From Ndongobacter massiliensis (GTDB lineage: Bacteria > Bacillota > Clostridia > Tissierellales > Peptoniphilaceae), in contig NZ_LT635480.1 in the NCBI RefSeq assembly GCF_900120375.1, forward strand, positions 496,001 to 560,000: 64,000 nt of DNA. Reading direction: 5' to 3'. The notes beneath the pieces are model-generated. The model made no database searches, was not told where the DNA came from, and was given only the letters and a program-made list of their open reading frames with translations. Shown one piece after another: positions 20,323-36,613 of the stretch (within the stretch, counting starts at the first letter, position 1; every line of letters begins with the position of its first letter). The position numbers and the translations under genes are program-made.

Positions 20323-23283
20323 CTACTGTCTATTTCCGACTTTTCTCCGCCGTACGACGGCAAGAAGCACTAGTGTACCGGCTGACAGCATTACCAAACC
20401 GAGCCAGATCCTCAACGGGTTGGTATCCCCGGTTTTCGGGGTTGTGTCCGACGCGATGGAAATCGAGGGACGGGGTGCGGTTGTCGGTTTTTCTACGGAG
20501 ACCCGGGGCTTTCCGGATGTAGGTTCCTCCGGGGCACTTCCCGGCTTGGTGGATGCGCTGGGATCCGGTTTTTTCGGGTCCGTAGTTTCGCCGTGATCCG
20601 GTTCTTCCAATACTTTATAATCGCAATCCAGGAAGCCGACAGTCAGTGCGCCGCTTGCGACGCCGTCACAGAAGCGATAAACGGGGCGCTGCCCGTTCAT
20701 GGTGTACGAAGCATCCAGAATGGCAAAGCCTTCGTTGTTTGCTGCGGTATCCACCCCGGCGGCGGGAAGAACATGTGTAATTGCCGGCTCTGCATGACCG
20801 CTCAGCGAGATTTTCGCCATTCGATTGCCATACCCGTCGTCCGCCGCTACCCAGAGTACGTGCTCATACGTGTCGTAATCCAGCGCCATGGCGCCGCCCA
20901 GCTTGGAGTCGATGTCCGCAATTTGTACCACCGTTTCATCCGCATTGAGGACGTAGGCGTACACATGGCCATTATCTTCCAATGCCACGAAGAAAACGCC
21001 ATTGGCAACCGCATCGGGGTAGTTGGCAGCATCAAAGGCCGCACCGGTGTTCTGGTCCAGCAATTTGCCGATGACATCGGCATTGGACACCCACTCGACC
21101 GCTTCAATGCCCATGTTTGCGGAAACCTGGGGCAGAGACCCCGTTAAATCCCATTCTTTTTGGGCGGTGAGCACGGTGCCGTCGCCGTTGGGATCGACTG
21201 TCAGAATCGAGTTATAGTTGACTCCTTTGGCACTGTTGTCGCGTTCCGAAGCGATGTAGACCATGCCGTCCCCGTCCACCGTAATGCCTTCGGCATCTGG
21301 TCCCTTCGCTTTTTCATTGCCGACGTCCTTGCGGAAACCGATGCGTTTGCCCAGTTCAAAGCCGGGCGCAAACGTCAGGGTGCCGTCTTTGGCAACGTCT
21401 ATGATCCAGAAAGTCGCCGTTCCGTTGTCCACTGCATAAAGTTTTCCATTGGCAAAATCCAAGCCTGAAGAATCTTCCAGGAAGGTCGGCGTAGTGTCAA
21501 ACACGCGAACCTCGTCGCTGCCGGGCCATGCCACGATTTCTGGGATACCGGCGAATTTATTTGGCGCACCGGGCGTAGGTTCAGAAGTGTTTTTATAGGT
21601 AGTACCGTTTACATCCGGGTACACTCCCCACGTGGGAGCGGTGTGCGATCCTTTTGACCAGGTTGTGGCGGCAATAGGCTGTCCGCTCTCAAGCAGTCGC
21701 ACGGAATCGCCTTTTCCGAGGCCAAAAGCAAATCCGTTCACGCCGTTGTCGTCCTGATAAATGACCAGGAATCCGTTGGCAGGAATGGTGGTGCCTGTTG
21801 GAATGGTGTACGGGTCTTTCTCTTTTTCGTCTAGCAGTACCAGTCCGGAGATATCCAACGCTTCGGCGGTCGGATTGGCGAGCTCGATCCAATCGGGACC
21901 GCCGGCGGGATCTTTGGACTGCACTTCATTGATCACCACCGGATTGACAATCTTATTCCGCTTTCCCTTTGTTGCGGTGGAAAAATCCTGAAAATCACCG
22001 GAGCCGTCCGGAATACGTGCATAGACTCCATTCGCATGACTTGTCCAACGGTATTGGGCGACGATGTTGCCGCCGGCATCATAAATGGTCGCCTCATCCG
22101 CTTTGCCCAGACCGAAGGTAAAATCTTTATTCTGATCGAACACGTAGAATGTGCCTGGCGCTAATGTAGTTCCTTCCGGCACCGGGGTGACGTCCGCTTT
22201 GTGTCCCACCGGGTCATTGTCCAACAGGTGCCAGCCGGAAATGTCCACCGGTTGCGTGCCGACGTTGAGAACCTCCACCCAGTCGATTACATCGCCGTTG
22301 GATTCGACTTCATTGATTACAACGTCCGGGACATAACGGTCATTGGCAAGACCCCTCGTTTCCTTCGTCAGGCAGAAGGTGCCGGCGCCGTCTGGATAAC
22401 GCCCATAGGATGCTTTTGCGGGATCTCCGTCATACGAAGCGTGTTCCGTCCAGCTATATTCGTCCAGTACATTGCCTTCCTTGTCATAGAGTCGAATCGC
22501 ATCTCCGGAACCGATGCCGATGGTGGCTTCAAACGTCCCTGCAAGAAAGCGGTTTGTCGTATCATCATAGATCAGCCCGTTGCTTTTCGCATCCACAACC
22601 AGCAATTCTCCCGCAGCAAGCGTGCTTCCTTTAGGGAAGCGCCAGCGATGATCGTCAGAATTGTCACGCAGTTCAAATCCGCCAAGGTCCAGCGCTTCCT
22701 CCCCGACATTCATCAATTCAACCCAATCGTCCGGGCTCGAATTGATCTCATTCAGCACGAGCGCCGGATTTCCGGACGGCTCTGCAGGATCTGGCGCAAT
22801 TGACGTTGCATTTGCGGCGCCGGGTGTTGCTTCTGCATCGACAAAGCTACCATCGCTTTGCCGCGACCATGTGCCAACTGCGACGCCGATATAGTCATAG
22901 CGATCAACCAGCTTATCATTTTGGTTGTACAATACCGCGGAATCCGCTTTTCCAAGACCGAAGTCGAAATGAACGTTCTCTTCCAGCACCAGAAAAGCTC
23001 CGGGTTCTAGTACTGTGCCCGCGGAAAACGGGGTGGTTTTTCCCTCACTTTTCCGCTCTAGTTCTTTATCATCGGTCAGATACCAGCCGGAGATGTCAAT
23101 CGGCTGCGAACCGATGTTCACAATCTCCACCCAATCATTTCCCTTATCCGGGGCATCCGATTCTACTTCGTTGATAACAACGGTGTTTGGTTGCGGTGAT
23201 TCTGGCTCTTCCGCAAAAACTGGCCCCTGTAACAACAGAACTGCCAACAGAAAAACGCACAGCATCTTGGTTGTTCGTTTCAT
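20323..23283 (-). CDS. Wall-anchored protein with four lamin-tail domains and a beta-propeller-like region
   Basis: A 986-residue secreted protein. Signal peptide (residues 1-24, ending VFA-EE), then four lamin-tail (LTD) domains, each opening with VVINEVES-type or LVLNEINS-type strands and containing DWVE(I/L) and ISGW or LGGF. Their starts are near residues 35, 174, 318 and 448. About residues 580-880 form a repeat-rich beta region with GLDFANGKLYAVDNG, KGPDAEGITVDGDGMVYIASERDN and GGAMALDYDTYEHVLWVAADDGYG. This resembles the SdiA-regulated/phytase-esterase-like propeller. A Pro/Thr/Ser stalk, TPKTGD, a hydrophobic helix and RRRK follow. LTD domains in bacteria accompany secreted nucleases or hydrolases, but no nuclease motif is visible. 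It is convergent with msrAB. AGGAGGG precedes the ATG. Confidence 0.85.
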   Translation of the reverse strand: MKRTTKMLCVFLLAVLLLQGPVFAEEPESPQPNTVVINEVESDAPDKGNDWVEIVNIGSQPIDISGWYLTDDKELERKSEGKTTPFSAGTVLEPGAFLVLEENVHFDFGLGKADSAVLYNQNDKLVDRYDYIGVAVGTWSRQSDGSFVDAEATPGAANATSIAPDPAEPSGNPALVLNEINSSPDDWVELMNVGEEALDLGGFELRDNSDDHRWRFPKGSTLAAGELLVVDAKSNGLIYDDTTNRFLAGTFEATIGIGSGDAIRLYDKEGNVLDEYSWTEHASYDGDPAKASYGRYPDGAGTFCLTKETRGLANDRYVPDVVINEVESNGDVIDWVEVLNVGTQPVDISGWHLLDNDPVGHKADVTPVPEGTTLAPGTFYVFDQNKDFTFGLGKADEATIYDAGGNIVAQYRWTSHANGVYARIPDGSGDFQDFSTATKGKRNKIVNPVVINEVQSKDPAGGPDWIELANPTAEALDISGLVLLDEKEKDPYTIPTGTTIPANGFLVIYQDDNGVNGFAFGLGKGDSVRLLESGQPIAATTWSKGSHTAPTWGVYPDVNGTTYKNTSEPTPGAPNKFAGIPEIVAWPGSDEVRVFDTTPTFLEDSSGLDFANGKLYAVDNGTATFWIIDVAKDGTLTFAPGFELGKRIGFRKDVGNEKAKGPDAEGITVDGDGMVYIASERDNSAKGVNYNSILTVDPNGDGTVLTAQKEWDLTGSLPQVSANMGIEAVEWVSNADVIGKLLDQNTGAAFDAANYPDAVANGVFFVALEDNGHVYAYVLNADETVVQIADIDSKLGGAMALDYDTYEHVLWVAADDGYGNRMAKISLSGHAEPAITHVLPAAGVDTAANNEGFAILDASYTMNGQRPVYRFCDGVASGALTVGFLDCDYKVLEEPDHGETTDPKKPDPSASTKPGSAPEEPTSGKPRVSVEKPTTAPRPSISIASDTTPKTGDTNPLRIWLGLVMLSAGTLVLLAVVRRRKVGNRQ

Positions 23284-24110: not shown

Positions 24111-24875
24111 ATGGATTATCCGCAATTGTTGGAAAAGCTGGAAATGTGTTCGTCGAAATTTACAGCTACGGATCGGCAGCTGGCTGATTTTTTCACAAAT
24201 ACGTGGAAGTTGGATGATATATCCGCCCGCTATGTTACGGAACAGGCATTTACCTCCTTCGCATCGCTGACACGGTTTGCAAAAAAACTGGGATACCGGG
24301 GATATCGCGAATTTGCCTTCGATTATCGCAGGGAGACGCCGGAGGAAGTGCAGGGAGTGGAAAAAACGGTTCATCCGAGCATTGTACGCCATGAGGCGAT
24401 GGTGCGGCGTTGCGCGGCTTTGTTGGATCCAAGTGCGGTGAAGGCAATGAGCCGGAGCATCGTAGCGCATCCGCGCGTGCAGTTTTATGGGGTTGGCAGT
24501 TCCGGACTGGCAGCGCAGGATGTATCCATCCGCCTTAGTCAGATGGGCATTGACGCCTCATCCGTGGTGGATGTGCATCAACTGCGCGATAACCACCGTT
24601 GCGTGGATCAATCGACCATGATCGTCGGATTTTCGCTAAGTGCGCAAACGACGGAAATCATGGAGGCGCTGATGCGGGCGAAAGAGTGCGGCGCCTGTGT
24701 CCACTTACTGACGGCGCAGGAACCGGCAAAGCGGTATCAGGCAATCGATGCTGTCCATTATGTGGCAGAAGTGAAAAAGTCAAAGGAGGGGGGCGTTTCG
24801 CCGCAGCTCCCGATTCTCGTTTACATGGACGCCGTTTTAGCGGAAATTGACCGCGAAAAGCAGGCGGGCGCATAG
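24111..24875 (+). CDS. RpiR/MurR-family transcriptional regulator (HTH plus SIS)
   Basis: 254 residues. Residues 1-75 are the HTH_6 domain (LTATDRQLADFF-like, then VTEQAFTSFASLTRFAKKLGYRGYREF). Residues 105-245 are a SIS sugar-phosphate sensing domain (VQFYGVGSSGLAAQD, MIVGFSLSAQTTEIMEAL). Such regulators respond to phosphorylated sugars or related metabolites and usually control adjacent transport and catabolism genes. It is the first gene of the run to 32892, so it probably regulates the TRAP/LarA genes. AGGAGG lies 5 bases before the ATG. Confidence 0.9.
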   Translation: MDYPQLLEKLEMCSSKFTATDRQLADFFTNTWKLDDISARYVTEQAFTSFASLTRFAKKLGYRGYREFAFDYRRETPEEVQGVEKTVHPSIVRHEAMVRRCAALLDPSAVKAMSRSIVAHPRVQFYGVGSSGLAAQDVSIRLSQMGIDASSVVDVHQLRDNHRCVDQSTMIVGFSLSAQTTEIMEALMRAKECGACVHLLTAQEPAKRYQAIDAVHYVAEVKKSKEGGVSPQLPILVYMDAVLAEIDREKQAGA

Positions 24876-24984
24876 TGACAAACGAGGCGTAGGACGCATT
24901 GCAGCGGAGGCTTGGTGACGAAATTGGATGCGCATAGAGCATTCGGTCGGGTCGCGGCGTCGATGCGGTACGAAAGGGGTTGCC

Positions 24985-25683
24985 TTGAAGAAACTGATTA
25001 TTATGGATTTTGACGGCTTGATGGTGGATTCGGAAGTGGCCGCATTCGAAGTTTGCCGCGAAATCCTAAAAAGAGATTATGATTTTGAGCTGTCTCTTTC
25101 CGATCACCTCATCTGCGTAGGTTCCAATACCGCGGTGCTGTGCGCCCATCTCCGGAAAAAATACGGCTTACCGGTCGATCCAACGTCTTTTTCCAAAAAT
25201 GTGCAGTGCGAAGCGCGGCGGCGCGCCTGGAATTTGCCGCTGCTGCCGGGTGTGGGCGATTTTATTGAAAAAGCCCGGAAAATGGCGCATTTAGCCCTGT
25301 GCACCTCCTCCAAACGCGCAAAAATGGAGGCATTTCTTCCTCATTTGGGGCTGGCGGATGTCTTCGATTGGGTGGTGACGCAGGAGGATGTCGAACGCAT
25401 CAAGCCGCATCCCGATCCGTATTGTAAGGTGCTGCAGTGGGCAGAAGTCGAGCCGTCGGAAGCATTGATTTTGGAGGATTCGCACAACGGTTTGCAGGCG
25501 GGAAACGCGGCGAGTATCGATGTGTACATCGTGCCCAATGCGATTACCCGGTACAGTGATTTCCGGGGCGCCAAAGCTGTACTTTCCTGCATCGCAGACT
25601 TTCCGTGGCACGCCGTATCTTTTGCGGAGAAAACGCCGGGAAAGGAAGCATTTTCGAATAAACGCGGAAAATTATTTCAGTAA
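24985..25683 (+). CDS. HAD-superfamily phosphatase/phosphomutase (beta-phosphoglucomutase type)
   Basis: 232 residues with all four HAD motifs: nucleophile and acid in MDFDGLMVDSE at residues 6-16, CTSSKRAK near 108, the Lys of RIKPHPDPY near 143 and LEDSHNGLQAG near 166. The cap domain sits between the first two. Enzymes of this kind hydrolyse or move phosphate on small sugars. A TTG at 24985 (LKKLIIMDFDG) behind GAAAGGGG is preferred to an ATG at 24928, which would add a 19-residue non-homologous leader. Its location between regulator and TRAP genes suggests it handles an intermediate of the same pathway. Confidence 0.85.
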   Translation: MKKLIIMDFDGLMVDSEVAAFEVCREILKRDYDFELSLSDHLICVGSNTAVLCAHLRKKYGLPVDPTSFSKNVQCEARRRAWNLPLLPGVGDFIEKARKMAHLALCTSSKRAKMEAFLPHLGLADVFDWVVTQEDVERIKPHPDPYCKVLQWAEVEPSEALILEDSHNGLQAGNAASIDVYIVPNAITRYSDFRGAKAVLSCIADFPWHAVSFAEKTPGKEAFSNKRGKLFQ

Positions 25684-25799
25684 GTCGGCCACGTACATCG
25701 CGAACATTCCTGCAGCAAAAGGGAGCAGCAGTTCCCGTCGTTCCATCGGCAGAGGGTGTTTGCAAAAAAATGAACAAAGAAAGTTGAAGGGAGCAACGT

Positions 25800-26813
25800 A
25801 TGCATCAGAAGAGCAGGGGAGTCAGGCGCAAATTCGGCCGTATTTTGGTACCGTTTTTATGCCTGTTTTTTATTCTCAGCGGTTGTCGTCCGAGTGTGGA
25901 GACAAGCGGCATCACCATTCGCGTCGGCCACGTCTTGGCGCCGACGCATCCGTACAATTTAGGTTTACTTAAATTTGCGGAATTGGTTGAAGAAAAAACC
26001 GATGGAAAAGTCAAGGTGGATGTTTTTCACAGTTCCCAGTTGGGCAACGAGCGCGACATGGTCGAAGGATTGCAGTTGGGGACCTTGGAAATGGCACTGA
26101 TTTCCACTGCACCGCTGTCCAGTTTTACGACGGACTTTTTAGTATTTGATTTGCCCTTTATTTTCAAAGATGCGCCGCACGCGCGCGAAGTGTTGGATGG
26201 ACCCATTGGAGATCGCCTGTTTGCTACACTGAAAGACCAGATGGTCATTGGGCTTGCCTATTGGGAAAACGGCTTTCGCAGTGTGACCAATAATGCGCGT
26301 CCGATTGAAACTCCGGCGGACCTGGCGGGACTCAAGATTCGCACCATGGAGAACCCGGTCCATATGGACAGCTTCAGCGCGCTGGGCGCGGCACCGACGC
26401 CGATGGCATTTGGGGAGCTGTTTACGGCGTTGCAGCAAAAGACCATCGACGGGCAGGAAAATCCGCTGCCGATTGTCGACACGTCGAAATTTTATGAGGT
26501 GCAGAAGTATCTATCCTTGACGGAACATTTTTATGCGCCGGCACCGCTGTTAGTCAGCGAAGATTTCTTTGAAAAACTTCCGGAAGACATTCAAAAAGCC
26601 ATTCAGGAGGCCGCCTATGAAGCGCGCGATTACGAGCGTGCGCAAATTGATGAGATGAACGCGCGCCTGTTAACGGAACTGGAAGATCGCGGCATGGAGA
26701 TCAACGCCCCGGACAAGGCACCCTTTATTGAAGCGGTGCAGAGCGTATATCAAAAATACACCGGGCTCATTCCGGCCGACCTCATTCAAGATGTAATCGA
26801 TGCACAGAAATAG
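25800..26813 (+). CDS. dctP: TRAP transporter substrate-binding lipoprotein (DctP family)
   Basis: 337 residues. Lipobox FILSGC near residue 29, then a DctP fold: IRVGHVLAPTHPYNLGLLKFAELVEEKT, GNERDMVEGLQLGTLEMAL, LPFIF, and the family arginine that grips the substrate carboxylate in LKIRTMENPVH near 180. QQKTIDGQENPLPIV follows. TRAP binding proteins deliver organic acids (C4-dicarboxylates, sialic acid, hydroxy acids). The Arg suggests a carboxylated substrate here too. AGGGAG precedes the ATG. It is the first of three co-transcribed TRAP genes. Confidence 0.94.
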   Translation: MHQKSRGVRRKFGRILVPFLCLFFILSGCRPSVETSGITIRVGHVLAPTHPYNLGLLKFAELVEEKTDGKVKVDVFHSSQLGNERDMVEGLQLGTLEMALISTAPLSSFTTDFLVFDLPFIFKDAPHAREVLDGPIGDRLFATLKDQMVIGLAYWENGFRSVTNNARPIETPADLAGLKIRTMENPVHMDSFSALGAAPTPMAFGELFTALQQKTIDGQENPLPIVDTSKFYEVQKYLSLTEHFYAPAPLLVSEDFFEKLPEDIQKAIQEAAYEARDYERAQIDEMNARLLTELEDRGMEINAPDKAPFIEAVQSVYQKYTGLIPADLIQDVIDAQK

Positions 26814-26822
26814 GAGGAAAGC

Positions 26823-27341
26823 ATGAAAAAAGCATTTCGATGGCTCGATAAATTGGAAGAGGGCATTCTGATTTTGATGATGGCCATTATGACCATTGCC
26901 ATTGTGACGCAGGTGGTTTCGCGCGTCGTCTTTCACAACTCTCTCGCATGGACGGAAGAGATCGCCCGTTACATCCTCGTCTGGGTGACCTTTGTCGGCG
27001 CCAGTCTCGGTGTCCGCAAAGGCGCGCACATCGGCGTGGAAGCCTTCACCGGAAAATTGCCCGCGCGTACGCAGAAAACCGTGCAGCGCGTGATGTACTT
27101 GATCTGCACCTTTTTCTGCTTGGTCACGAGCTTGTCCAGCATCCGCATTTTGTTGCTGCAGGCGAAAACCGGACAGGTGTCCGCCGCCGTGCAGATTCCG
27201 ATGTGGCTGCCGTACCTAGGCGTCACGGTGGGCGTGTTTATGATGGCGGTACGCTTTTTGGAGGCATTTGCGCAGACTTTTGAAAAAGGCGGAGTAAACG
27301 ACACGGAAGCACCCGCGATGGAAAAGGAAGGGGTTCACTAA
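26823..27341 (+). CDS. dctQ: TRAP transporter small membrane subunit (DctQ family)
   Basis: 172 residues with four predicted membrane helices. The family marker WTEEIARYILVWVTFVGASLGVRKGAHIGVE is at residues 42-72. The subunit partners with DctM in the Na+-driven carrier. Its stop codon shares one base with the start of dctM (TAATG), indicating coupled translation. Confidence 0.93.
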   Translation: MKKAFRWLDKLEEGILILMMAIMTIAIVTQVVSRVVFHNSLAWTEEIARYILVWVTFVGASLGVRKGAHIGVEAFTGKLPARTQKTVQRVMYLICTFFCLVTSLSSIRILLLQAKTGQVSAAVQIPMWLPYLGVTVGVFMMAVRFLEAFAQTFEKGGVNDTEAPAMEKEGVH

Positions 27342-28624
27342 TGGCAAGTATTCTGTTTTTAGGTTTTATTGTACTGGTCGTGATCGGCACCCCGATTGCC
27401 ATCAGTTTGGGTCTGGCATCCATGGTTGCCGTGTGGTTTAAGACGGCAATTCCTCTTGTACTCGTGCCGCAGCGCATGTTTACCGCAGCCGATTCATTTC
27501 CACTGATGGCGATCCCGTTCTTCATGCTCGCCGGTGCACTCATGGAATCAGGTGGCATTTCGCGCCGACTGATTAACCTGGCAAATGCCCTTGTGGGCCA
27601 TGTCCGCGGCGGACTTGCCATGGTAGGCGTTTTGACCTGTATGTTCTTTGCCGCTATTTCCGGTTCCGGTCCGGCAACGGTTGCTGCGGTCGGTTCCATG
27701 ATGATTCCGTCTATGGTACGCGCCGGATATGATGAATCTTTCGCATCCGCCATTATGGCAATTTCCGGTTCCATCGGCATTGTCATTCCGCCCAGCATCC
27801 CCATGGTCACCTATGGTGTCGTCGCAGGCGCATCGGTCGGAGCGCTCTTTATGGGCGGATTTATCCCGGGCATCCTGATCGGCGTGGGTCTGATGATCTA
27901 TGCACATTTTGTGTCCAAGAAGCGCGGGTATGGTGTCAGTGACGCGAAGTTCAGCGCCTCCGCACTGGGCAAAGCATTTTTGGACGCCATCTGGGCGATT
28001 CTCATGCCGGTCATCATTTTGGGCGGCATTTACGGCGGATTTTTCACGCCAACCGAAGCGGCCGCCGTCGCCGTTGCATACGGCTTCATCGTGGGCTTTT
28101 TCGTCTACAAAGAACTGAAATTCAAAGACTTGGCGACAATTTTTGTCAATGCTGCGGTCAGCACGGCAACGGTTATGCTGATTATTGCCGCCGCTTCCGT
28201 ATTCGGCTGGATTTTGACGAGTGAACGCATTCCGGACGCCGTCGCCAACGCCTTTATCTCGATCACTCAGAGTCCATACGTCTTCATGGTCCTGATCAAC
28301 ATTCTGCTGCTCATTGTCGGTACCTTCATGGAAACCAACGCAGCCATTATCATTCTCGCTCCGATTTTCCTGCCATTGGTGCAGAGTTTGGGCATCAACC
28401 CGGTCGCTTTCGGTGTCGTCATGGTCTGCAACTTGGCAGTTGGCATGGTTACACCGCCGCTGGGCGTCAATCTCTTCGTCGCCTGTGGTATTCGCAAGAA
28501 TATGACCATAGAAAAGATCAGTGGCGCGGTGTTGCCGATGATTGCCATCAATGTGGCGGTTATTCTGCTTCTCTCATTCCTCCCGCAGTTGATTACTTTC
28601 CTGCCGGATCTCTTGTTGAAGTAA
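27341..28624 (+). CDS. dctM: TRAP transporter large permease (DctM family)
   Basis: 427 residues, about twelve hydrophobic helices. Typical DctM sequences are present: FPLMAIPFFMLAGALMESGGIS, AISGSGPATVAAVGS, GIVIPPSIPMV and FTPTEAAAVAVAYG. It forms the substrate path of a secondary transporter fed by the DctP lipoprotein. Starts inside the dctQ stop codon; the LarA-family gene follows after 10 bases. Confidence 0.95.
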   Translation: MASILFLGFIVLVVIGTPIAISLGLASMVAVWFKTAIPLVLVPQRMFTAADSFPLMAIPFFMLAGALMESGGISRRLINLANALVGHVRGGLAMVGVLTCMFFAAISGSGPATVAAVGSMMIPSMVRAGYDESFASAIMAISGSIGIVIPPSIPMVTYGVVAGASVGALFMGGFIPGILIGVGLMIYAHFVSKKRGYGVSDAKFSASALGKAFLDAIWAILMPVIILGGIYGGFFTPTEAAAVAVAYGFIVGFFVYKELKFKDLATIFVNAAVSTATVMLIIAAASVFGWILTSERIPDAVANAFISITQSPYVFMVLINILLLIVGTFMETNAAIIILAPIFLPLVQSLGINPVAFGVVMVCNLAVGMVTPPLGVNLFVACGIRKNMTIEKISGAVLPMIAINVAVILLLSFLPQLITFLPDLLLK

Positions 28625-28634
28625 GGAGGCATTT

Positions 28635-29903
28635 ATGTATCAGAGTCGTTGCCCAATCGAAGAAATCCCGATGTATCGCATTCGGCAGCAATTTCCCACC
28701 GATTCCATTGCGGATGTGCGCGCGGAAACTCTGTCGAAACTGCGCAAATTCGGACTGCAAGATCGCGTAAAGCCCGGCATGACACTTGCCATAACGGCGG
28801 GCAGTCGTGGCATTTCCAAGATTGATGTCATTTTGCGTGCCGTCTGCGACTTTTTGAAGGAAGCCGGCGCGAAACCCTTTATCGTTCCCGCCATGGGCAG
28901 CCATGGCGGAGCGACCAATGAAGGACAGTTGCACGTTCTGCACGAGTTAGGTATTACCGAAAAAACCATGGACGTGCCGATTTGCGCTTCCATGGAATGT
29001 GAACTGTTGGGTCATACGGAAAACGGCATGCCCGTGTATTTTGATAAAATCGCCTACGAGGCAGACGGGGTCATTGTCGTCAATCGCATCAAACCGCATA
29101 CGGATTTCGTCGGCACCATCGAAAGCGGACTGACGAAAATGATGGCGATCGGGTTGGGCAATGAACTCGGCTGCTCAACCATGCACGCCTGGGGGCTGGG
29201 GAAGAGTATTCCCGTTTCGGCCCGCCTTTCCAAACAAAAGGTGAACATTGTTTGCGGTCTGGGAATTTTGGAGAACTCTCGCGATGAGACGTACCGGCTG
29301 GAACCGGTGTCACCGGAGCACTTCGAGGAAGAGGAACACGTTCTATTGGAAGAGGCGAAACGCTTGGTACCGCGCCTGCCGGTGGAAGAATTGGATGTGC
29401 TCGTGGTGAACGAAATGGGTAAAATGTTCAGTGGAACGGGCATGGACACCAAGATTATCGGGCGGATGCGCGTGCCGGGCGAGAAGGAGCCAGAGAGCCC
29501 ACGCATTAAGCAACTGGCAGTTTTGAATTTGGCGTCAAACTCCTACGGCAATGCGCTTGGTATCGGCTTGGCGGATGTCACGACGCAAAAGCTGGCGGAT
29601 GCGGTTGATTGGAAAGCAACGTATGCCAATATCATCCCCACGACCTATCTGGAGCGCGGAAAGCTTCCCGTCACGCTGCCGAACGACCAACAGGCGATTA
29701 CAATTGCGCTCAACGGGGCGCACGCGATCGATCCGCACAAGGTACGGCTTGCCGTGGTGAAAAATACCTTACAGTTGCAGGAAATGTGGGTTTCCGAAGC
29801 AGTACGCGCCGAGTTGGCACCCGGAAAGGCGGAAGTGTTGGAGGAAACGCGCTTGTCATTTGATGAAATGGGGAATTTGTGTCTCGGAAAGGAGTCACTA
29901 TGA
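28635..29903 (+). CDS. LarA-family nickel-pincer racemase/epimerase homologue (DUF2088)
   Basis: 422 residues. LarA interconverts lactate enantiomers with a Ni-pincer nucleotide attached to Lys and held by histidines. The corresponding residues are visible: His90 (MGSHGGATNEGQ), His155 (IKPHTDF), Lys168 (SGLTKMMAIG) and His184 (STMHAWG). The Lys-His spacing of 16 equals that in L. plantarum LarA. LarA homologues act on several 2-hydroxyacids, so lactate should not be assumed. The TRAP transporter directly upstream probably brings in the substrate. LarB, LarC and LarE, needed to make the cofactor, are not in this window. AAGGAGG lies 7 bases before the ATG. Confidence 0.88.
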   Translation: MYQSRCPIEEIPMYRIRQQFPTDSIADVRAETLSKLRKFGLQDRVKPGMTLAITAGSRGISKIDVILRAVCDFLKEAGAKPFIVPAMGSHGGATNEGQLHVLHELGITEKTMDVPICASMECELLGHTENGMPVYFDKIAYEADGVIVVNRIKPHTDFVGTIESGLTKMMAIGLGNELGCSTMHAWGLGKSIPVSARLSKQKVNIVCGLGILENSRDETYRLEPVSPEHFEEEEHVLLEEAKRLVPRLPVEELDVLVVNEMGKMFSGTGMDTKIIGRMRVPGEKEPESPRIKQLAVLNLASNSYGNALGIGLADVTTQKLADAVDWKATYANIIPTTYLERGKLPVTLPNDQQAITIALNGAHAIDPHKVRLAVVKNTLQLQEMWVSEAVRAELAPGKAEVLEETRLSFDEMGNLCLGKESL

Positions 29904-30280
29904 AATGGATGCACACAAAGCTGCCCGAGTTTTTGAAAAAACTGAAGGTGGCGGCAACGTCGTATGTGGGTGAAAAAAATTATAAAATTGAAGGACTGGA
30001 AAATCTGAAATCGGCAAAAATGCAATCGCTGCGCACGGGACGTATCGAAGAGGCGATTGAAGAGCTGGCACGTGCGGAAGGCACCGGACGCATTGAAGTA
30101 TCCGTGATTCCGCGAGTACCGGAAACGATGCATACGATTTGTATCAAGTCCTACGACAAGAACGGCGCACCCAAAAAGGCGATCTTGGAAGTCATCAATA
30201 TTATTCATCCGACGGAAGAAGTTGAAACGATGGGCTTCGAGGACATTGAGGATCGCCGTCCTGCGCTCGGTAAACATTGA
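29900..30280 (+). CDS. Conserved-looking 126-residue protein of the LarA operon, unknown function
   Basis: Starts on the ATGA overlap with the LarA-family gene, so it is translationally coupled. A predicted helical, Lys-rich N-terminal third (LPEFLKKLKVAATSYVG) is followed by a mixed alpha/beta part (GRIEVSVIPRVPETMHTICIKSYDKNG, AILEVINIIHPTEEVE). No cysteines, no membrane segment, no motif I know. An accessory subunit or small enzyme of the pathway is possible but unproven. Confidence 0.75.
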   Translation: MKWMHTKLPEFLKKLKVAATSYVGEKNYKIEGLENLKSAKMQSLRTGRIEEAIEELARAEGTGRIEVSVIPRVPETMHTICIKSYDKNGAPKKAILEVINIIHPTEEVETMGFEDIEDRRPALGKH

Positions 30281-30290
30281 GGAGGAAAGC

Positions 30291-31337
30291 ATGAAAAAAA
30301 TACAGTATCGGCTGATCAAAGCCGGAGCGGGCCTCAATGGCATGGTGCCCCTGAATTTAGCATTGGTGGATAAGAAAGATCTGGACGCAGCGGGTGTCTC
30401 CGGGGATGCCATGATTCGCGCGATTGCTGCGGATTTGAAAGCGCCGGTTACGGTCAATATCTTTGACATGGATGCCGTTACTACAACCAGCGACGGCATT
30501 ATGGTGGAAGGCGCCATCGTCAAAATGGGCGCCGGCGATATGGGCAAAGTCCACAAAGAATTCGGAATTTTAGACATGGCCCCGATGGAAGTGACACCGG
30601 AGTTGATTGCGGAGGAACCGCATTTGAAACAGTGGACGGCTAATTTTGAAGGCCGTCGTCTGTTCCGCGGCCCGGATCCGGCGAAAAAGCTGATTCCGGT
30701 GCACAACGTGGTCATGACCGGCCGTGCGGTGAATAACAACTCGGCGACGGAGATGATGAATTCAGTGACGATGGAGGAGATTCTCTTTCCGATTTTGGGG
30801 CAACTGGAGCTCATGCGTGATCATGCTGTGGTCATGGGTCTGACCGGCGAAGTCATTTCGGTTGGCATCGGCATGACCGTAGCGGAAAAATTTGGTCGCG
30901 TATTTCCGACGCGTCAGTTTGGCGCGGGCGATACGGCGCACGGCTCCGGCGAATATGCCAAGACGCTGAAAAAATCGATCCCCATCATTGCGGCGACAAA
31001 AGCAGCGCTGGCGGAGAATTTCATCCGCGCGCTGGAAGCGGGTATGGTGCCGGGACGCGATATCGGTTGTTCGCCGGCCGTGCTGGCTGTGGCGCGGGAA
31101 ATGGGCGCTCCGGTCGATGTCGAAAATATTACGGCAGCGGCGCGCGAAGAATTGAAGAGCGTCGGTGTCGATGTGACCGAGTTTTCCGAGAAGCCGGCGC
31201 GTCGGTTGTCCAATGAGGAAATCATTGCGCAGGCGGATTCGATCATTCCGGGCATCGAAGGGATGCAGAAATTGGAAGCGGATGCTTTGGTTACGTCGAT
31301 GACGGTTTCAGTTGCCGAAGAGGAAGTGATGGCGTAA
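30291..31337 (+). CDS. 348-residue protein of the LarA operon, unknown enzyme
   Basis: Probably cytosolic, with no signal peptide. Gly-rich turns are seen at AGAGLNGMVPLNLAL, MVEGAIVKMGAGDMGKVHKEFGI and RQFGAGDTAHGSGEYAKTL, and an Ala-rich helix at IAATKAALAENFIRALEAGM. PHLKQWTANFEGRRLFRGPDPAKKLIPVHNVVMTGR contains several conserved-looking basic residues. I cannot place it in a family. The ATG at 30291 is preceded by GAGGAAAG; the longer frame from 30222 overlaps the upstream gene without a ribosome site. Its size and its place in the middle of the run suggest a core catalytic component. Confidence 0.75.
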   Translation: MKKIQYRLIKAGAGLNGMVPLNLALVDKKDLDAAGVSGDAMIRAIAADLKAPVTVNIFDMDAVTTTSDGIMVEGAIVKMGAGDMGKVHKEFGILDMAPMEVTPELIAEEPHLKQWTANFEGRRLFRGPDPAKKLIPVHNVVMTGRAVNNNSATEMMNSVTMEEILFPILGQLELMRDHAVVMGLTGEVISVGIGMTVAEKFGRVFPTRQFGAGDTAHGSGEYAKTLKKSIPIIAATKAALAENFIRALEAGMVPGRDIGCSPAVLAVAREMGAPVDVENITAAAREELKSVGVDVTEFSEKPARRLSNEEIIAQADSIIPGIEGMQKLEADALVTSMTVSVAEEEVMA

Positions 31338-31340
31338 TTT

Positions 31341-31694
31341 ATGAACGAAGCGATTATTGCCTACGTTGATAAATCCGTTGTAAAAATTCGGGGGCTTCAG
31401 GTAAAAGGCCTGAAGCCCTTCGAATTGGAAAAGAAGGTGGAGGAGCAGATCGACGGGCGCGTGCGCGTGATCGGCGTGACGGGCGAATCAATTGAGATGG
31501 ACATCTACGGTTTGGATCCCGAGGCAATTTATGCCAATGAAAAAGGTATTGTGCAGGCGCTATCTCTGACGGAGGGCATTGTGGCAAGCGATGTTGTGAA
31601 AATCGATCAAGCGGAAAAAATTGTTGAAGTCGATTATCGGGACATTCCGACCGGGGAGTACATCGGTTGCGCGCGGGAACGGTGGCTGCGATGA
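31341..31694 (+). CDS. 117-residue protein of the LarA operon, unknown function
   Basis: Begins 3 bases after the previous stop and overlaps the next gene by 4 bases. The N-terminal half alternates strands and charged helices (AIIAYVDKSVVKIRGLQVKGLKPFELEKKVEEQ). The tail has IVEVDYRDIPTGEYIGCARERW with a single Cys. There are no recognisable motifs. Strict overlap with neighbours argues for a fixed stoichiometric partner. Confidence 0.72.
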   Translation: MNEAIIAYVDKSVVKIRGLQVKGLKPFELEKKVEEQIDGRVRVIGVTGESIEMDIYGLDPEAIYANEKGIVQALSLTEGIVASDVVKIDQAEKIVEVDYRDIPTGEYIGCARERWLR

Positions 31695-32269
31695 AATGCT
31701 ATTTTCTGCCCACGGGCGATGAAATAGCCGACGGCATTGTCATTGATACGAATACACCGGCGATGTTGCAAATTCTTTTGGAACACGTACCGAGCGCGAC
31801 GGCGACTCGCCTGGCGCCGGTGCGCGACAGCGAGAAGGCCATTGCAGAAGCGTTGCGCCAAGCTGAAGGCGCGGATTTATTTTTTCTCATTGGGGGTTCG
31901 GGCGGCGGACATCGTTTTGATCCTACATTGGGCAAAGACTTTACCCACACGGCCCTTGCAGCGCAATTGAAATCTGCATCCTCTCATGCCGTTTTCGGGA
32001 AAAACGGTCACTTATGGACAAAACTGACAGCCGGCTTCTATGGGAATTGTTTGGTGGCAAATGTTCCCGGCCCGTACCGGGAAGCGGTTGCTGCGACGCG
32101 CGCTTTCTTTCAAGAGTGGGACGCGGCGCATTTGCATGGGGATCTGCAAGAAAACGAAAATGACCGCGCGGCGCTCGCCGAACGGATATCGAAAGCGATG
32201 ATTCAAGCGGTACTGGCGGAATATCCGACAAAAGAGGGTTTGCGATGCGAGAAGATTCCAAAAAATTAG
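31691..32269 (+). CDS. MoeA/CinA-like molybdopterin-binding-fold protein
   Basis: 192 residues. TGDEIADGIVIDTN at residues 7-20 and FFLIGGSGGGHRFD near 69-82 match the MoCF-binding fold shared by MoaB, MogA, the MoeA core and CinA. There are no other molybdenum-cofactor genes nearby, and the fold is known to be used for other nucleotide-like ligands. The start at 31691 overlaps the preceding stop (ATGA). In this operon it may handle a nucleotide-type cofactor, perhaps the pincer nucleotide, but that is conjecture. Confidence 0.7.
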   Translation: MKCYFLPTGDEIADGIVIDTNTPAMLQILLEHVPSATATRLAPVRDSEKAIAEALRQAEGADLFFLIGGSGGGHRFDPTLGKDFTHTALAAQLKSASSHAVFGKNGHLWTKLTAGFYGNCLVANVPGPYREAVAATRAFFQEWDAAHLHGDLQENENDRAALAERISKAMIQAVLAEYPTKEGLRCEKIPKN

Positions 32270-32892
32270 GCGGAGCTCTCTGCACCTTATCCCTTTCCAA
32301 CGCGACACTTGCTGCGGCAGTCCTATATCAAAAAGAGGCTGCAGAGAGTTCGGTCGGCTTTTTTCAGCACCGTTTCCGGGCGCTTGCGCCCATTTTTTCC
32401 AATCTTTCCCGGAACTGCGATGTAGTGGCCATCGACCAATGCCTTGAACGGGCGGCAGATCAATGGCACCCGTCCATTGTTGCCGTTGCCATGAGTGTCT
32501 ATGTACCGGGCGCAAGCGGTCCCACGGGGGGCATCCTCGGCTTTCCGGGGCACCCTTGGACACCCGCCGGGAAGTATATGGAAAAAGGTCCCCATGGGTT
32601 AAGTTTGAGCGGCATGCCGGGCGGTCCAGGTGTCCTTGTGGCGGGTGATTTTACGCACGCGAAGGGGCTATTCAGCCGGTGTGCTCTGCCGGATGGGCGG
32701 TTGCTTGCCGCAACAAAAATTGTCGATGCCATACAAAGAGAAGGTATTTCAACGGCCCTGTGGGTGACCGACGGCTGCGGCGCAAGCGCCGTGGGGCGAG
32801 TCGGCCTTTACGAACAGGGCAGAGTGGAAGAAATCAATCTTCGACAGTTACACGAACAGAGTGATCAAAAGAATCGCCGGCAGCCCAATTAG
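32245..32892 (+). CDS. 215-residue last gene of the LarA operon, unknown function
   Basis: It overlaps the previous gene by 25 bases and its 3' end overlaps the convergent ykoC gene by 45 bases. Gly/Pro-rich core: VAMSVYVPGASGPTGGILGFPGHPWTPAGKYMEKGPHGLSLSGMPGGPGVLVAGDF, then LWVTDGCGASAVGRVGLYEQG. No membrane segments or known motif. The two Gly-rich loops suggest a binding site for a phosphate or a nucleotide. Confidence 0.68.
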   Translation: MREDSKKLGGALCTLSLSNATLAAAVLYQKEAAESSVGFFQHRFRALAPIFSNLSRNCDVVAIDQCLERAADQWHPSIVAVAMSVYVPGASGPTGGILGFPGHPWTPAGKYMEKGPHGLSLSGMPGGPGVLVAGDFTHAKGLFSRCALPDGRLLAATKIVDAIQREGISTALWVTDGCGASAVGRVGLYEQGRVEEINLRQLHEQSDQKNRRQPN

Positions 32893-33582
32893 AAACGCAA
32901 TATCCCAAAATGTCCATCGGAATATGACCCAATTTGTACGCGGTCCCCGGTCCGTAAAGCCTTTTGAAATCATCGCCATGGCTAGGTAATCGGACCAGCG
33001 GACCGTTTTTACGAGCATAATTTTCAATACATGCAGCGATAGAGGAGAAAGATGGACGCCCCGCGCCGCCAAAGCGCGGCGCACCTTGGCGTATTCATCG
33101 CGCATTTTTGGCAAAATACTCCATGCCGCCATGACCGAATAGGCAAAGGTACGAGGCAGGTGCAGCTGCTGTTCATACGATTGGATGCAGGCGACGCGAT
33201 CCTGCAAAAAGGCAAAAACCATGCCGAGACCGCCGAAGGCAAGTGCGCGCGAAGAGAGGAGCAAGCCGGTGTAAAGGGCGGAATTCTGCCAATAGTCGGC
33301 GGAAAGCCCCAAACTGTCCGGACGGTGATAATAATAGCCGGTAAAAAACAGCGAAGCGCCCACAAAAAGTAACAGCAACAAAAATTTTCCATAGCTCTTT
33401 GTCGGACGGTGCAGCAGCACGGCGACTTGGCATAGAGCGAAAACCACTAGATTTAGGGTCCAGCGAAATTGAAACGCGAGCAGGATCGTTGAAAGAATCA
33501 GCCCGATACTTCTGGCAGAGGGGTTAATACCCCGCCAAAGGCGCTCAGAATTTTTTGGACAAGCTGGCGGCGTCGATTTCAT
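32848..33582 (-). CDS. ykoC: ECF transporter T component for a thiamine precursor (YkoC-like)
   Basis: A 244-residue membrane protein with about five helices. The two coupling-helix motifs of EcfT proteins, RRALAARG near 172 and AMISKGFTDRG near 208, connect the membrane part to the ATPases. It is the last gene of a riboswitch-controlled set. The start overlaps the ykoD stop by 38 bases, which is long but no later Met exists ahead of the first helix. Its own stop lies inside the convergent gene to 32892. Confidence 0.88.
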   Translation of the reverse strand: MKSTPPACPKNSERLWRGINPSARSIGLILSTILLAFQFRWTLNLVVFALCQVAVLLHRPTKSYGKFLLLLLFVGASLFFTGYYYHRPDSLGLSADYWQNSALYTGLLLSSRALAFGGLGMVFAFLQDRVACIQSYEQQLHLPRTFAYSVMAAWSILPKMRDEYAKVRRALAARGVHLSPLSLHVLKIMLVKTVRWSDYLAMAMISKGFTDRGPRTNWVIFRWTFWDIAFLIGLPAILLITLFV

Positions 33583-35011
33583 AAAGACCGTCCTCCTTCA
33601 AGTAAAAAATGACATCCGCATACGCCTGCGCCAAGGCCCAGTCATGGCTGGAAAACACGACGCAGGTGTTTTCTTCTCGTGCGGCACGCACCAGTTCTTC
33701 CATGATGGCGAGCGTGTTGCGATAATCTTGCGCATAACAGGGTTCATCACAAAGGAGCAACTGTGCACCTTCCGCCAACAGTGCCATAACGGCTAGCCGG
33801 CGTTGTTGGCCCTCACTGAGTTGAAACGGGGCATAGCGACGAAGCGGCCAAAGTTGTGCGGACTCCAGTAATGTGCGCCCTTGTTTCTCCTGTTGCGCCG
33901 GATCGGGAAACTTGCGCTGCAGGGAAAAGAGCAGTTCTTCACGAACGGTATTTTTCACAAATTGATCTTGCGGGCTTTGGAAAAGCAGACGAATCGCTGG
34001 AGAAATGCGCAGGCGACGTCCGAAAAGACGGGGCGTAGGAGCGAGTGGACCGTCCCACTCGCCGCAGCTTTTGTGAAATCCGGCGAGGGATTCCAACAAC
34101 GTACTTTTTCCAATGCCAGACACTCCCAAAAGAGCATAGAGTTTGCCGCGTTCAAGTTGGAAAGACACTTTCTGCAAAACGTCTTTGTTCCCTCGCGTGA
34201 CACAAAAATCGGAAACAGACAGCAACATTTCTCCAGGCTGTGTTTGTTTTTCTGGTTCGGGATAGGAGACCCCTTGTGCCAGCACGCCATGCTTTGCCCA
34301 GTCGACGGCAGTGAAAGTGCGACATTCCTCCGGTCCACAGGCAAGTTGTCCATGCTCATTTACAACAAAAAAATCGTCCGCAATGCCCTGCCAAGGGCCG
34401 ATTTGGTGATCGACGGCGAGAATCGAAATGCCGCGATCACGCAGTTTTGCAAATAGAGGGAGAATGGCATTGCGCTGCTTCGGATCGACCTGACTGAAGA
34501 TTTCATCCAAAAGAAGCCACTCACACGGGACGGCGAGGCGAATGGCGATATTCAATCGCTGTTTTTCACCGCCGGAAAGTGTTCGAATCAAGCGCTTCTC
34601 GTACCCGGCAAGGCCTACAAAAGCGAGCGCTTCGTGCATGGCAGTATCCATTTTTTCTGGATCCATACAGGCATTTTCCATGACAAAACGCATTTCCCGA
34701 TCGACGCGTTCAAAGCAGAACTGTAAATCGGCATTCTGAAAGAGCAGTCCCATGCGCCGGCTGCGTTCCAAGGGATCCAGGGCTTGAACGGGCATGTCGC
34801 CAAGTAGCACTTGTCCGTCGGTACGCTGTCCACCGTGTTCGGGATACAACCCTGCTGCTAAAAAGAGCAAGGTGGATTTTCCGCAGCCGGAAGGCCCGGT
34901 CAATAGGGAAATTCGACCGGGCTTGATGACAGCGCTGAAATTTTGTACGGTATTTGGCGCTTCCGCAAAGTAGCGGAAAGACACCGCGTCGAAGTTAATC
35001 GCAGAAGGCAT
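33545..35011 (-). CDS. ykoD: ECF transporter double ATPase (YkoD-like EcfA-EcfA fusion)
   Basis: 488 residues carrying two ABC ATPase domains. Domain 1: Walker A GPSGCGKST at 39-47, signature LSGGEKQR, Walker B WLLLDEIF. Domain 2: Walker A GVSGIGKST near 300, degenerate signature LSEGQQRR, Walker B LLLCDEPC where the aspartate is kept. The fused layout is that of B. subtilis YkoD, which powers uptake of a thiamine pyrimidine precursor. The altered second signature suggests asymmetric ATP sites. It starts 17 bases inside the ThiY-like gene. Confidence 0.92.
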   Translation of the reverse strand: MPSAINFDAVSFRYFAEAPNTVQNFSAVIKPGRISLLTGPSGCGKSTLLFLAAGLYPEHGGQRTDGQVLLGDMPVQALDPLERSRRMGLLFQNADLQFCFERVDREMRFVMENACMDPEKMDTAMHEALAFVGLAGYEKRLIRTLSGGEKQRLNIAIRLAVPCEWLLLDEIFSQVDPKQRNAILPLFAKLRDRGISILAVDHQIGPWQGIADDFFVVNEHGQLACGPEECRTFTAVDWAKHGVLAQGVSYPEPEKQTQPGEMLLSVSDFCVTRGNKDVLQKVSFQLERGKLYALLGVSGIGKSTLLESLAGFHKSCGEWDGPLAPTPRLFGRRLRISPAIRLLFQSPQDQFVKNTVREELLFSLQRKFPDPAQQEKQGRTLLESAQLWPLRRYAPFQLSEGQQRRLAVMALLAEGAQLLLCDEPCYAQDYRNTLAIMEELVRAAREENTCVVFSSHDWALAQAYADVIFYLKEDGLYEIDAASLSKKF

Positions 35012-35876
35012 GGCAATAGGTATTCGGCAATTTTTTTTCGCCGAGGATGCCTTTTTCCTGCAGGAAATCTTGCAAGGCGATCCAATCGGCTGTTTGAATC
35101 CGCCCCCAACGTCCCTGCGGATCTAAAAGCAGCGGCTGTAGGTGTTTGATGCCTTCGACCAAAATCGTGCGGTCTACAGCAGGCAGCTTTGCTTCAATTT
35201 CCGGCAACACGGACGGACCTTCGTTGACAACATCCTGATAGCCCTTTTCGGTTGCAGCGAGAAAGTCTGCAATCACTTCCGGTTCTTTTTCCACCAGCGC
35301 GCGGCGTGCTGCCATGGCAGGTGCCGGATAGTTGAAAGGCTGCCCATACTCAACAAAGGGGATGTAGTTCACTTCATAGCCGGCCTGTTTCATGACGAAG
35401 TACTCCCAGTACTTGTAAATCCAGATGGCATCGGCAACTTTTCCGAGCACTTCTTCCGGCTCTCCGACGTCCATCGAAATCTTTTCCACTTTCTCATAAT
35501 CTCCGCCGTCGCGATTTACCAACTCCCCGACAACGGCGTGGAACCATGCCGGTGTCCAGTGGGTGATGCGCTTGCCGGTCAAATCCTTCGGACGTTTAAT
35601 GCCGGCCTCTTTTAACGAAATAATGCCGGAGTCCTGACGATACGACAGCGAGGCGATGCCGATAATGTTTCCGTTTTCTGCAATTTCCGTTAGAATCGAC
35701 GCCTCGGGGCCGACGACAAAATCTATGGTTTCGGGTGCTTTCAAGACACCATGGACCTCCCCGGAAATCGAAAGAGCTAGATTTTTCTCCGCATAGTAAC
35801 CGCGCCTTTGGGCTAGGAGCATACCGGCGTGAATGGTGTTTGGGAACCAATCTAAGATCATATTCAATGTGCGCAT
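34995..35876 (-). CDS. ThiY/NMT1-family pyrimidine-precursor binding protein without a signal peptide
   Basis: 293 residues with the NMT1/THI5-like periplasmic-binding fold: LNMILDWFPNTIHAGMLLAQRRGYYAEKNL at the N terminus, then FVVGPEASILTEIAENGN, LTGKRITHWTP and VADAIWIYKYWEYFVM. ThiY of bacilli is a secreted formylaminopyrimidine binder. Here the conserved domain begins at residue 4, so there is no export signal or lipobox. The THI5 enzyme signature CCCFC is absent, so pyrimidine synthesis by that route is unlikely. It takes the operon place where B. subtilis has YkoF. GGAAAGGAAA precedes the ATG. Confidence 0.85.
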   Translation of the reverse strand: MRTLNMILDWFPNTIHAGMLLAQRRGYYAEKNLALSISGEVHGVLKAPETIDFVVGPEASILTEIAENGNIIGIASLSYRQDSGIISLKEAGIKRPKDLTGKRITHWTPAWFHAVVGELVNRDGGDYEKVEKISMDVGEPEEVLGKVADAIWIYKYWEYFVMKQAGYEVNYIPFVEYGQPFNYPAPAMAARRALVEKEPEVIADFLAATEKGYQDVVNEGPSVLPEIEAKLPAVDRTILVEGIKHLQPLLLDPQGRWGRIQTADWIALQDFLQEKGILGEKKLPNTYCHAFCD

Positions 35877-35922
35877 TGTTTTTCCTTTCCGTTATTGAAC
35901 ACTTTATCTTCCAACCGTGTGA

Positions 35923-36552
35923 TTACAGCGCGTCATCTTCCGCCACCAGATTCGGGCCGTATTGGCGGCCGAGCGGGTACGAGCGCAGCACGCCCGTTTT
36001 TGCCAATCCCTTGCCGAGAATCTCTGCAAAAAATCCGCAGAAGAGGAGCGACGACAGGATGCGCAAGGCGGCCATGGCGGCAATGATGCCCCCTTGTAAA
36101 TTGGCGTATCCGTTGAGATACAGGGTTTGCAGCATGGTGACGAGTGCCGCGCACAGCGCGGAGCACAGCAGACTGCGCCGATCCCATACGCGGTAGCGGA
36201 ATAACGCAAAGCCCAATTCGCAGCCGATCCCTTGAATGACGCCCGTGATGACGACCAACATACCGCCGGAATTGCCCATTAAAAGTTCAATCAAAGCGGC
36301 TAAAAATTCTGTGGTAAATGCCACACCGGGTTTTTGGATGATAAAAGCGGCAATTGTGGCGGCTAAAAACCAAATGCCGTACACAAGTTCAAAGGCAAAG
36401 GGTCCAAAGCCCACCGGGGTCAACGCAGTTTGCAGGGCAAGTCCCAAATAAAACACCCCCAGATAAACCAGTGCAAACAGCACGCCCAACATGGCCATGA
36501 GCAGGACATCCTGCAACCGCCAACTCTTTCCAACATTTTCCGTTTTGTTCAT
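35923..36552 (-). CDS. ykoE: ECF transporter substrate-binding S component (YkoE-like)
   Basis: A 209-residue integral membrane protein of about six helices: LQDVLLMAMLGVLFALVYLGVF, FELVYGIWFLAATIAAFII, PGVAFTTEFLAALIELLMGN and more. The pattern is that of YkoE, the S unit specific for a thiamine pyrimidine moiety. The ATG at 36552 (MNKTENVGKSW) follows AAAGGGGAA. An ATG at 36612 in the same frame touches the terminator T tract and has no ribosome site. First gene of the riboswitch operon. Confidence 0.88.
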   Translation of the reverse strand: MNKTENVGKSWRLQDVLLMAMLGVLFALVYLGVFYLGLALQTALTPVGFGPFAFELVYGIWFLAATIAAFIIQKPGVAFTTEFLAALIELLMGNSGGMLVVITGVIQGIGCELGFALFRYRVWDRRSLLCSALCAALVTMLQTLYLNGYANLQGGIIAAMAALRILSSLLFCGFFAEILGKGLAKTGVLRSYPLGRQYGPNLVAEDDAL

Positions 36553-36613
36553 TGATTTCCCCTTTCTTTTTTGCCGGTTCTTTTGCACAGGGGACTGCCA
36601 CGCGGGAATCATG

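Follow-up and report, generated by a model that had tools for sequence, protein, structure and literature searches.

The stretch analyzed here, hereafter the window, comprises 64,000 nucleotides from the genome of the anaerobe Ndongobacter massiliensis (assembly GCF_900120375.1, contig NZ_LT635480.1, positions 496,001 to 560,000). Eleven genes, all read in the forward direction, lie between window positions 24111 and 32892. The last nine, from DctP through a 215-residue protein (25800-32892), are contiguous with intergenic gaps of -25 to +10 bp, which bears out an earlier reading of this stretch (the initial annotation) that had treated the overlapping or nearly touching genes as one unit. Spacing is looser upstream, with 109 bp between the RpiR and HAD genes and 116 bp between HAD and DctP. 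The operon joins a tripartite ATP-independent periplasmic (TRAP) transporter and a nickel-pincer epimerase of the LarA superfamily to five further genes, called here X126, X348, X117, MoCF, and X215. What stands out is this conserved, unassigned module, and not the LarA operon as such. The genes are as follows.

24111-24875, plus strand: RpiR/MurR-family regulator with HTH_6 and SIS domains (Pfam PF01418, 39 bits; PF01380, 32 bits).
24985-25683, plus strand: HAD-family hydrolase (PF13419, 105 bits); its start is uncertain, TTG at 24985 or ATG at 24928.
25800-26813, plus strand: DctP, TRAP solute-binding protein with a lipoprotein-type leader (PF03480, 348 bits).
26823-27341, plus strand: DctQ, TRAP small membrane subunit (PF04290, 119 bits).
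27341-28624, plus strand: DctM, TRAP large membrane subunit (PF06808, 418 bits).
28635-29903, plus strand: LarA, group 22 (LarA22), a LarA-superfamily 2-hydroxyacid epimerase/racemase dependent on the nickel-pincer nucleotide (NPN) cofactor (NF052515, 507.7 bits, cut-off 400).
29900-30280, plus strand: X126, module protein 1, 126 residues (no Pfam family in 21 relatives).
30291-31337, plus strand: X348, module protein 2, 348 residues (no Pfam family in 22 relatives).
31341-31694, plus strand: X117, module protein 3, 117 residues (no Pfam family in 21 relatives).
31691-32269, plus strand: MoCF, module protein 4, a single-domain MoCF-fold protein, CinA/MoeA-like (PF00994, 42.5 bits, cut-off 26.6).
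32245-32892, plus strand: X215, module protein 5, 215 residues, fast-evolving (no Pfam family in 15 relatives).

Is the module more than a chance run of reading frames? Relatives were collected with X348 as the probe from order, class, and phylum samples and from named genomes, and the set X126-X348-X117-MoCF(-X215) was found to recur together in about 23 loci spread over many families of Bacillota. Because the block recurs so widely, the genes are, judged by conservation, real and beyond chance. Among the 24 module loci compared, two of which probably represent overlapping parts of the same operon from a single assembly, X126 is present in 24, X117 in 23, MoCF in 21, and X215 in most; the three loci without MoCF all lie on contigs that are short or run out there. 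In the phylum sample, X348 was found in 10 of 398 genomes (one 77-residue match discounted), and its relatives include proteins of Sedimentibacter acidaminivorans, S. hydroxybenzoicus, and Candidatus Petromonas tenebris. None was seen in the plasmid or phage records searched or outside Bacillota-type records, the named-genome scan relying on narrow peptide patterns. A literature search found no paper describing the module. Neighborhood conservation and the presence of pincer-cofactor genes elsewhere in the genome had been proposed as checks in the initial annotation; this recurrence answers the first.

Searches of X126, X348, X117, and X215 against Pfam and NCBIfam returned nothing above noise, and Pfam scans of the relatives counted above, taken one by one, gave only noise for X348 and X126 and no family for X117 and X215, so the earlier statement that these four proteins belong to no assignable family stands. 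No UxaA, IlvD/Edd, or AcnX domain was found in them with Pfam, and a comparison of the four proteins and their alignments with the PDB gave no convincing sequence relative. By profile comparison, X348 is unrelated to LarA, X126, X117, X215, and MoCF, and X117 is unrelated to X126. Could these nevertheless belong to a known enzyme family and have diverged too far for profiles to detect, with an ordinary, known pathway behind them? The MoCF fold itself is recognized at just 42 bits, X215 retains about 20-25% identity among relatives, and library coverage is limited. However, the single scans of the many X348 and X126 members and the PDB comparison were negative, and AlphaFold2 (AF2) models found no confident fold match. 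We regard a hidden known family as quite improbable.

Several individual observations can be set beside these results. X117 carries an invariant C110 and R114 close to its C-terminus; its match to the beta subunit of D-lysine 5,6-aminomutase (E 0.2) was dismissed as noise. X215 has TGGI and GGPG motifs, and its match to the designed pentatricopeptide repeat protein 6een, which covers a short stretch and fails on its own, was also dismissed as noise. When X126, X348, and X117 of one locus (L071) were chained for AF2, with stops read through merely to join the three frames, the model was of low confidence (predicted local distance difference test, pLDDT, 62). Its X126 part resembles histidine-kinase ATP-binding domains with Z up to 7.3, which is within the noise range of the tool; families missing from the lists are not thereby excluded.

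LarA is more readily placed. It matches the NCBIfam model "NPN isomerase group 22" above the curated cut-off, the model spanning residues 2-383 of the translated part; Pfam Lar_N (PF09861) matches at 43 bits, and no separate Pfam C-terminal LarA domain was matched at E 1. R58, H90, H155, K168, and H184 are invariant across 15 group-22 relatives. Alignment to the Isosphaera pallida enzyme (LarA_Ip, 9eia), with residue roles taken from PMC12611868 and PMC11770544, makes H90 and H155 the two catalytic histidines, H155 aligning with the second, His174 of LarA1. By spacing and motif, K168 is assigned as the covalent NPN lysine (K184), H184 as the nickel ligand (H200), and R58 to the phosphate-arginine position (R75). 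The initial annotation had recognized the LarA homolog correctly and had named His155, Lys168, and His184 as pincer ligands; all three residues are present and the roles of K168 and H184 hold, but H155 is a catalytic acid/base histidine and not a ligand. Because both catalytic histidines are kept, unlike in the single-histidine subfamily (PMC12611868), ordinary inversion at C2 is expected of this enzyme. Compared with LarA1 and the lactate racemases, the F175/F176 positions, usually F/F, are the hydrophilic T156/D157. The superfamily groups were reportedly set out by Desguin et al. in 2020, and no characterized substrate was found for group 22.

The genes for pincer-cofactor synthesis, the second proposed check, are all present in the same genome: larE, larB, and larC lie consecutively at 568.4-571.2 kb, 8-11 kb past the end of the window (LarE, TIGR00268, 247 bits; LarC, PF01969, 449 bits; LarB, 57% identity to its homolog in L075). 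The genome also encodes three further LarA paralogs. Their neighbors are a D-threonate-kinase-family gene with a PdxA homolog, a UxaA-type gene, and another TRAP transporter with a dihydrodipicolinate synthase-type gene, the kinase being confirmed by profile and the others read from sequence. Three other genomes (G924, G787, and G856) have a group-22 LarA and the module, and LarC was not found in them; G924, at 98% completeness, shows five group-22 LarA matches. Either LarC has diverged in these genomes or their cofactor supply is LarC-independent.

What does the operon import? DctP has R160, R181, and N221 at the positions expected for Arg152, Arg173, and Asn213 of 4P47, which, with all three TRAP families present, upholds the proposed uptake of a carboxylate. 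Its nearest solved relatives are 4nq8, 4pdd, 4p9k/4pak, 4p47, and 4pdh, of which we take 4nq8, 4pdd, 4p9k/4pak, and 4pdh to be the pantoate/erythronate-bound structures. The DctP of locus L095, whose operon contains a D-threonate-kinase-family protein and PdxA2, retrieves the same PDB set, and for the Sedimentibacter DctP the top match is 4pdh. Structures in this neighborhood of solute-binding proteins (SBPs), besides open and sugar-bound ones, held pantoate or erythronate, ligands of SBPs being mostly co-purified (PMC11668362); pantoate/D-erythronate is also a TRAP ligand class from the Enzyme Function Initiative screen (PMC5812351). Since the window DctP is nearest to pantoate/erythronate-type SBPs, as is that of the kinase/PdxA2 operon, our best guess for its substrate is a tetronate-like acid. 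In operons with a 4-hydroxybutyryl-CoA dehydratase, the substrate may instead be a five-carbon acid. A TRAP transporter lies near the module in most loci; in L097 (3278-8856), an oligopeptide/Dpp-type ATP-binding cassette transporter, read from sequence, stands upstream of the module in its place.

The module also keeps company with LarA and usually stands beside a LarA22 gene. A group-22 LarA above the cut-off is encoded in the genomes of 21 of the 23 module-bearing assemblies (two of the 23 being probably the same assembly), and every one of the 10 module genomes in the phylum sample carries LarA22, compared with 85 of all 398 genomes (hypergeometric P 1.3e-7, not phylogeny-corrected). Module-linked sequences group together on a tree of 32 group-22 LarAs (4 changes versus 10.8 in shuffles) without forming a single clade; therefore, the pairing was gained or lost on more than one occasion and is not simple co-inheritance. 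In 11 of the 24 module loci, pyruvate:ferredoxin oxidoreductase (PFOR) or a relative of it among the 2-oxoacid:ferredoxin oxidoreductases is encoded no more than 9.5 kb away (TIGR02176, 1898 bits), and a 4-hydroxybutyryl-CoA dehydratase homolog lies near the module in seven, the copy of the present genome scoring 828 bits to 1U8V. The operon is probably a hydroxy-acid catabolic unit, and the earlier suggestion of a hydroxy-acid pathway with conversions beyond epimerization is supported.

Does the module act on the substrate or on the cofactor? As accessory machinery for the nickel-pincer cofactor, it would repair or modify NPN or load it into LarA22, with MoCF and NadD-like neighbors handling pyridine nucleotides. 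The strong co-occurrence with LarA22 would suit such a role, as would the failure to find LarC in three module-bearing genomes. In L066 (4490-14024), the module and a 2-oxoacid:ferredoxin oxidoreductase lie between larB and larC, all in the same orientation, LarA22 being encoded at another place in that genome, and in L075 larBCE lie near the module. A NadD-like, cytidylyltransferase-family gene also sits between X348 and X117 in three loci (L076, 11144-11773; L050, 5328-5927; L077, 11165-11782). However, 75 of the 85 LarA22-positive genomes of the phylum sample do without the module, and genome G542 has the module and no LarA22. Furthermore, the genome studied here contains a second X126-X348-X117-MoCF block at 1648346-1650765 (locus L064, G000:C1:1642155-1653651). 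TRAP genes of its own come after this block; PFOR, 4-hydroxybutyryl-CoA dehydratase (AbfD), and a GntR regulator come before it, and no LarA is adjacent. A cofactor system would not need one copy per transporter; the module, being duplicated in that way, looks like a substrate-processing step and not a cofactor factory. A substrate-converting enzyme is what we favor, with some confidence, while a role in cofactor supply appears the least probable of the explanations considered.

The initial annotation had linked MoCF to the pincer enzyme through a shared concern with unusual nucleotide cofactors. This link is not supported, as MoCF travels with X126, X348, and X117 and not with LarA, both in the second copy and in the LarA22 genomes that have no module. 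The protein is a single PF00994 domain with the motifs PTGDE...GGSGGG...PGP. It shares the TGDE start motif, GG(S/T)G loop, and PGP motif with the CinA N-terminal domain, MoeA, and MogA; it differs from them in its single-domain form, in its own GGSGGGHR and GKNGH motifs, and in its presence in genomes without MoaC. Of 22 module-bearing genomes, 8 lack MoaC, among them G857 and G182, both about 99% complete. Molybdopterin is therefore not the general ligand of the protein, and a general role in molybdenum cofactor synthesis was rejected. A pyridine-nucleotide role is possible but weak, given the NadD-like gene inside three modules and larB/larC around another. In two loci (L072, 11130-11624; L094, 7661-8167), a second, MogA/MoaB-like MoCF protein is encoded directly after the module MoCF gene.

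How, then, might the module work on its substrate? DctPQM would import a small hydroxy- or polyhydroxy-monocarboxylate of about C4-C5, tetronate-like, and LarA22 would flip its C2 hydroxyl by reversible hydride transfer through the nickel-pincer cofactor. The multi-protein enzyme X126-X348-X117-MoCF-X215 would then take the correctly configured acid to a 2-oxo acid, which in many homologous operons PFOR could convert to acyl-CoA. A 2-oxo acid is suggested as the product because dehydratases often occupy the module-free LarA22 loci and PFOR lies near module loci. In six tested cases, LarA22 loci without the module carry UxaA-type (L035, L074), IlvD/Edd (L036, L049), or AcnX (L041, L043) dehydratases; module loci lack such enzymes, the one exception being L074, whose UxaA is part of a distinct LarA/Tct cluster that runs divergently. 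The likeliest chemistry would be a dehydration- or isomerization-type reaction on X348. We guess X348 to be the catalytic subunit since its 22-member alignment holds many invariant acidic, histidine, asparagine, and lysine residues; the invariant positions are D59, D83, E109, H111, N148-N150, E154, E163, E199, R203, H217, K227, and K237.

Several points weigh against this scheme. The dehydratase comparison is based on six loci, PFOR is absent beside the window operon itself, and no similarity of X348 to any dehydratase was detectable. In L051, L095, and L096, LarA22 and the module genes occur together with a DUF1537 kinase and PdxA2, whose chemistry requires an intact vicinal diol and is a poor fit with a dehydratase module. 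They speak against a simple dehydratase and would allow for an isomerase. A dehydratase or lyase step in particular is doubtful, its chemistry being guessed.

In the isomerase alternative, the module would be an isomerase or second epimerase with a DapF/PrpF-like X348 that shifts a proton at another carbon; together with LarA22 acting at C2, it would bring any stereoisomer into the form used by downstream kinases and dehydrogenases. This would suit the kinase/PdxA2 operons, which need a correctly configured tetronate. The AF2 model of X348 folded alone (pLDDT 74; predicted template modeling score, pTM, 0.79) was re-aligned with VIA over residues 1-344, and the rows listed are chiefly of one fold class: HisR, PrpF, methylitaconate isomerase, DapF, and PhzF. 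However, the best Z values (4.0 and 3.9) are well under 8, the tool's own mark for a notable match, and Foldseek gave no match below E 0.37. X348 has no Pfam match to DapF, PrpF, PhzF, or proline racemase, and hhalign against PrpF gave a probability of 0.6% (12 PrpF sequences, eight others having been dropped for stops in frame as read). X348 thus compares with the DapF/PrpF/PhzF-fold enzymes as weakly alike in overall topology, with no detected sequence similarity and no conserved cysteine, and the modeled fold is a lead only. Moreover, the C3-H of a 3-hydroxy acid is not acidic, making direct proton transfer unlikely without an oxidized intermediate. We consider an isomerase module unlikely.

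Import, epimerization by LarA22, and conversion to a 2-oxo acid by the module make up the best explanation of the whole, which we judge about evenly balanced between right and wrong. The sequence establishes the transporter, an epimerase with its full set of catalytic and cofactor-binding residues, the cofactor pathway, and a conserved module that co-occurs with LarA22; the substrate class and the substrate-converting role of the module are inferred. A bolder formulation, tentative and a little short of that balance, is that X126-X348-X117-MoCF-X215 forms a multi-subunit enzyme not described before, in which a repurposed MoCF protein is combined with new families, and that this enzyme, partnered by a nickel-pincer epimerase, converts hydroxy acids in anaerobes by chemistry as yet undescribed.

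The remaining genes of the region are local. In related loci, neither the RpiR nor the HAD gene turned up as a conserved companion of the module, and promoter and terminator scans gave a signal no better than chance. On the minus strand at 32848-36612 lie energy-coupling factor (ECF)-type transporter genes, the last of which is convergent with the 3' end of X215 with a 45-bp overlap; among them, at 34995-35876, is a gene for a 293-residue NMT1/THI5-like protein without an obvious signal peptide. Upstream are a peptide-methionine sulfoxide reductase A+B fusion with a lipoprotein-like leader (19065-20183) and, on the minus strand, a secreted 986-residue protein in which lamin-tail-like domains recur and the C-terminus forms a hydrophobic anchor (20323-23283). 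All of these flanking genes were read from sequence.

Why does the module matter? For most LarA groups, the substrate and pathway are not known, and group 22 is now repeatedly tied to one block of unassigned proteins. This tie offers a concrete, testable way to the group-22 substrate and to a probable new enzyme. Should the block prove to be an enzyme, families without a current Pfam or NCBIfam model would join anaerobic hydroxy-acid metabolism in Firmicutes.

Set beside known systems, the LarA of the window operon is like other group-22 members (NF052515) in being full-length over the cut-off and in having the catalytic histidines, covalent lysine, and nickel histidine. With the tetronate operons, built on a DtnK/OtnK-type DUF1537 kinase and PdxA2, the window shares the SBP clade, and LarA22 and module genes adjoin that gene pair in the three loci named above; in contrast, the window operon has neither kinase nor PdxA2, and the known tetronate pathways have no such module. 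With the operons that combine LarA22 and a sugar-acid dehydratase (UxaA, IlvD/Edd, or AcnX), it shares a common plan of transporter, LarA22, and acid-processing enzyme, the X126-X348-X117-MoCF-X215 block standing in the window where those operons have their dehydratase.

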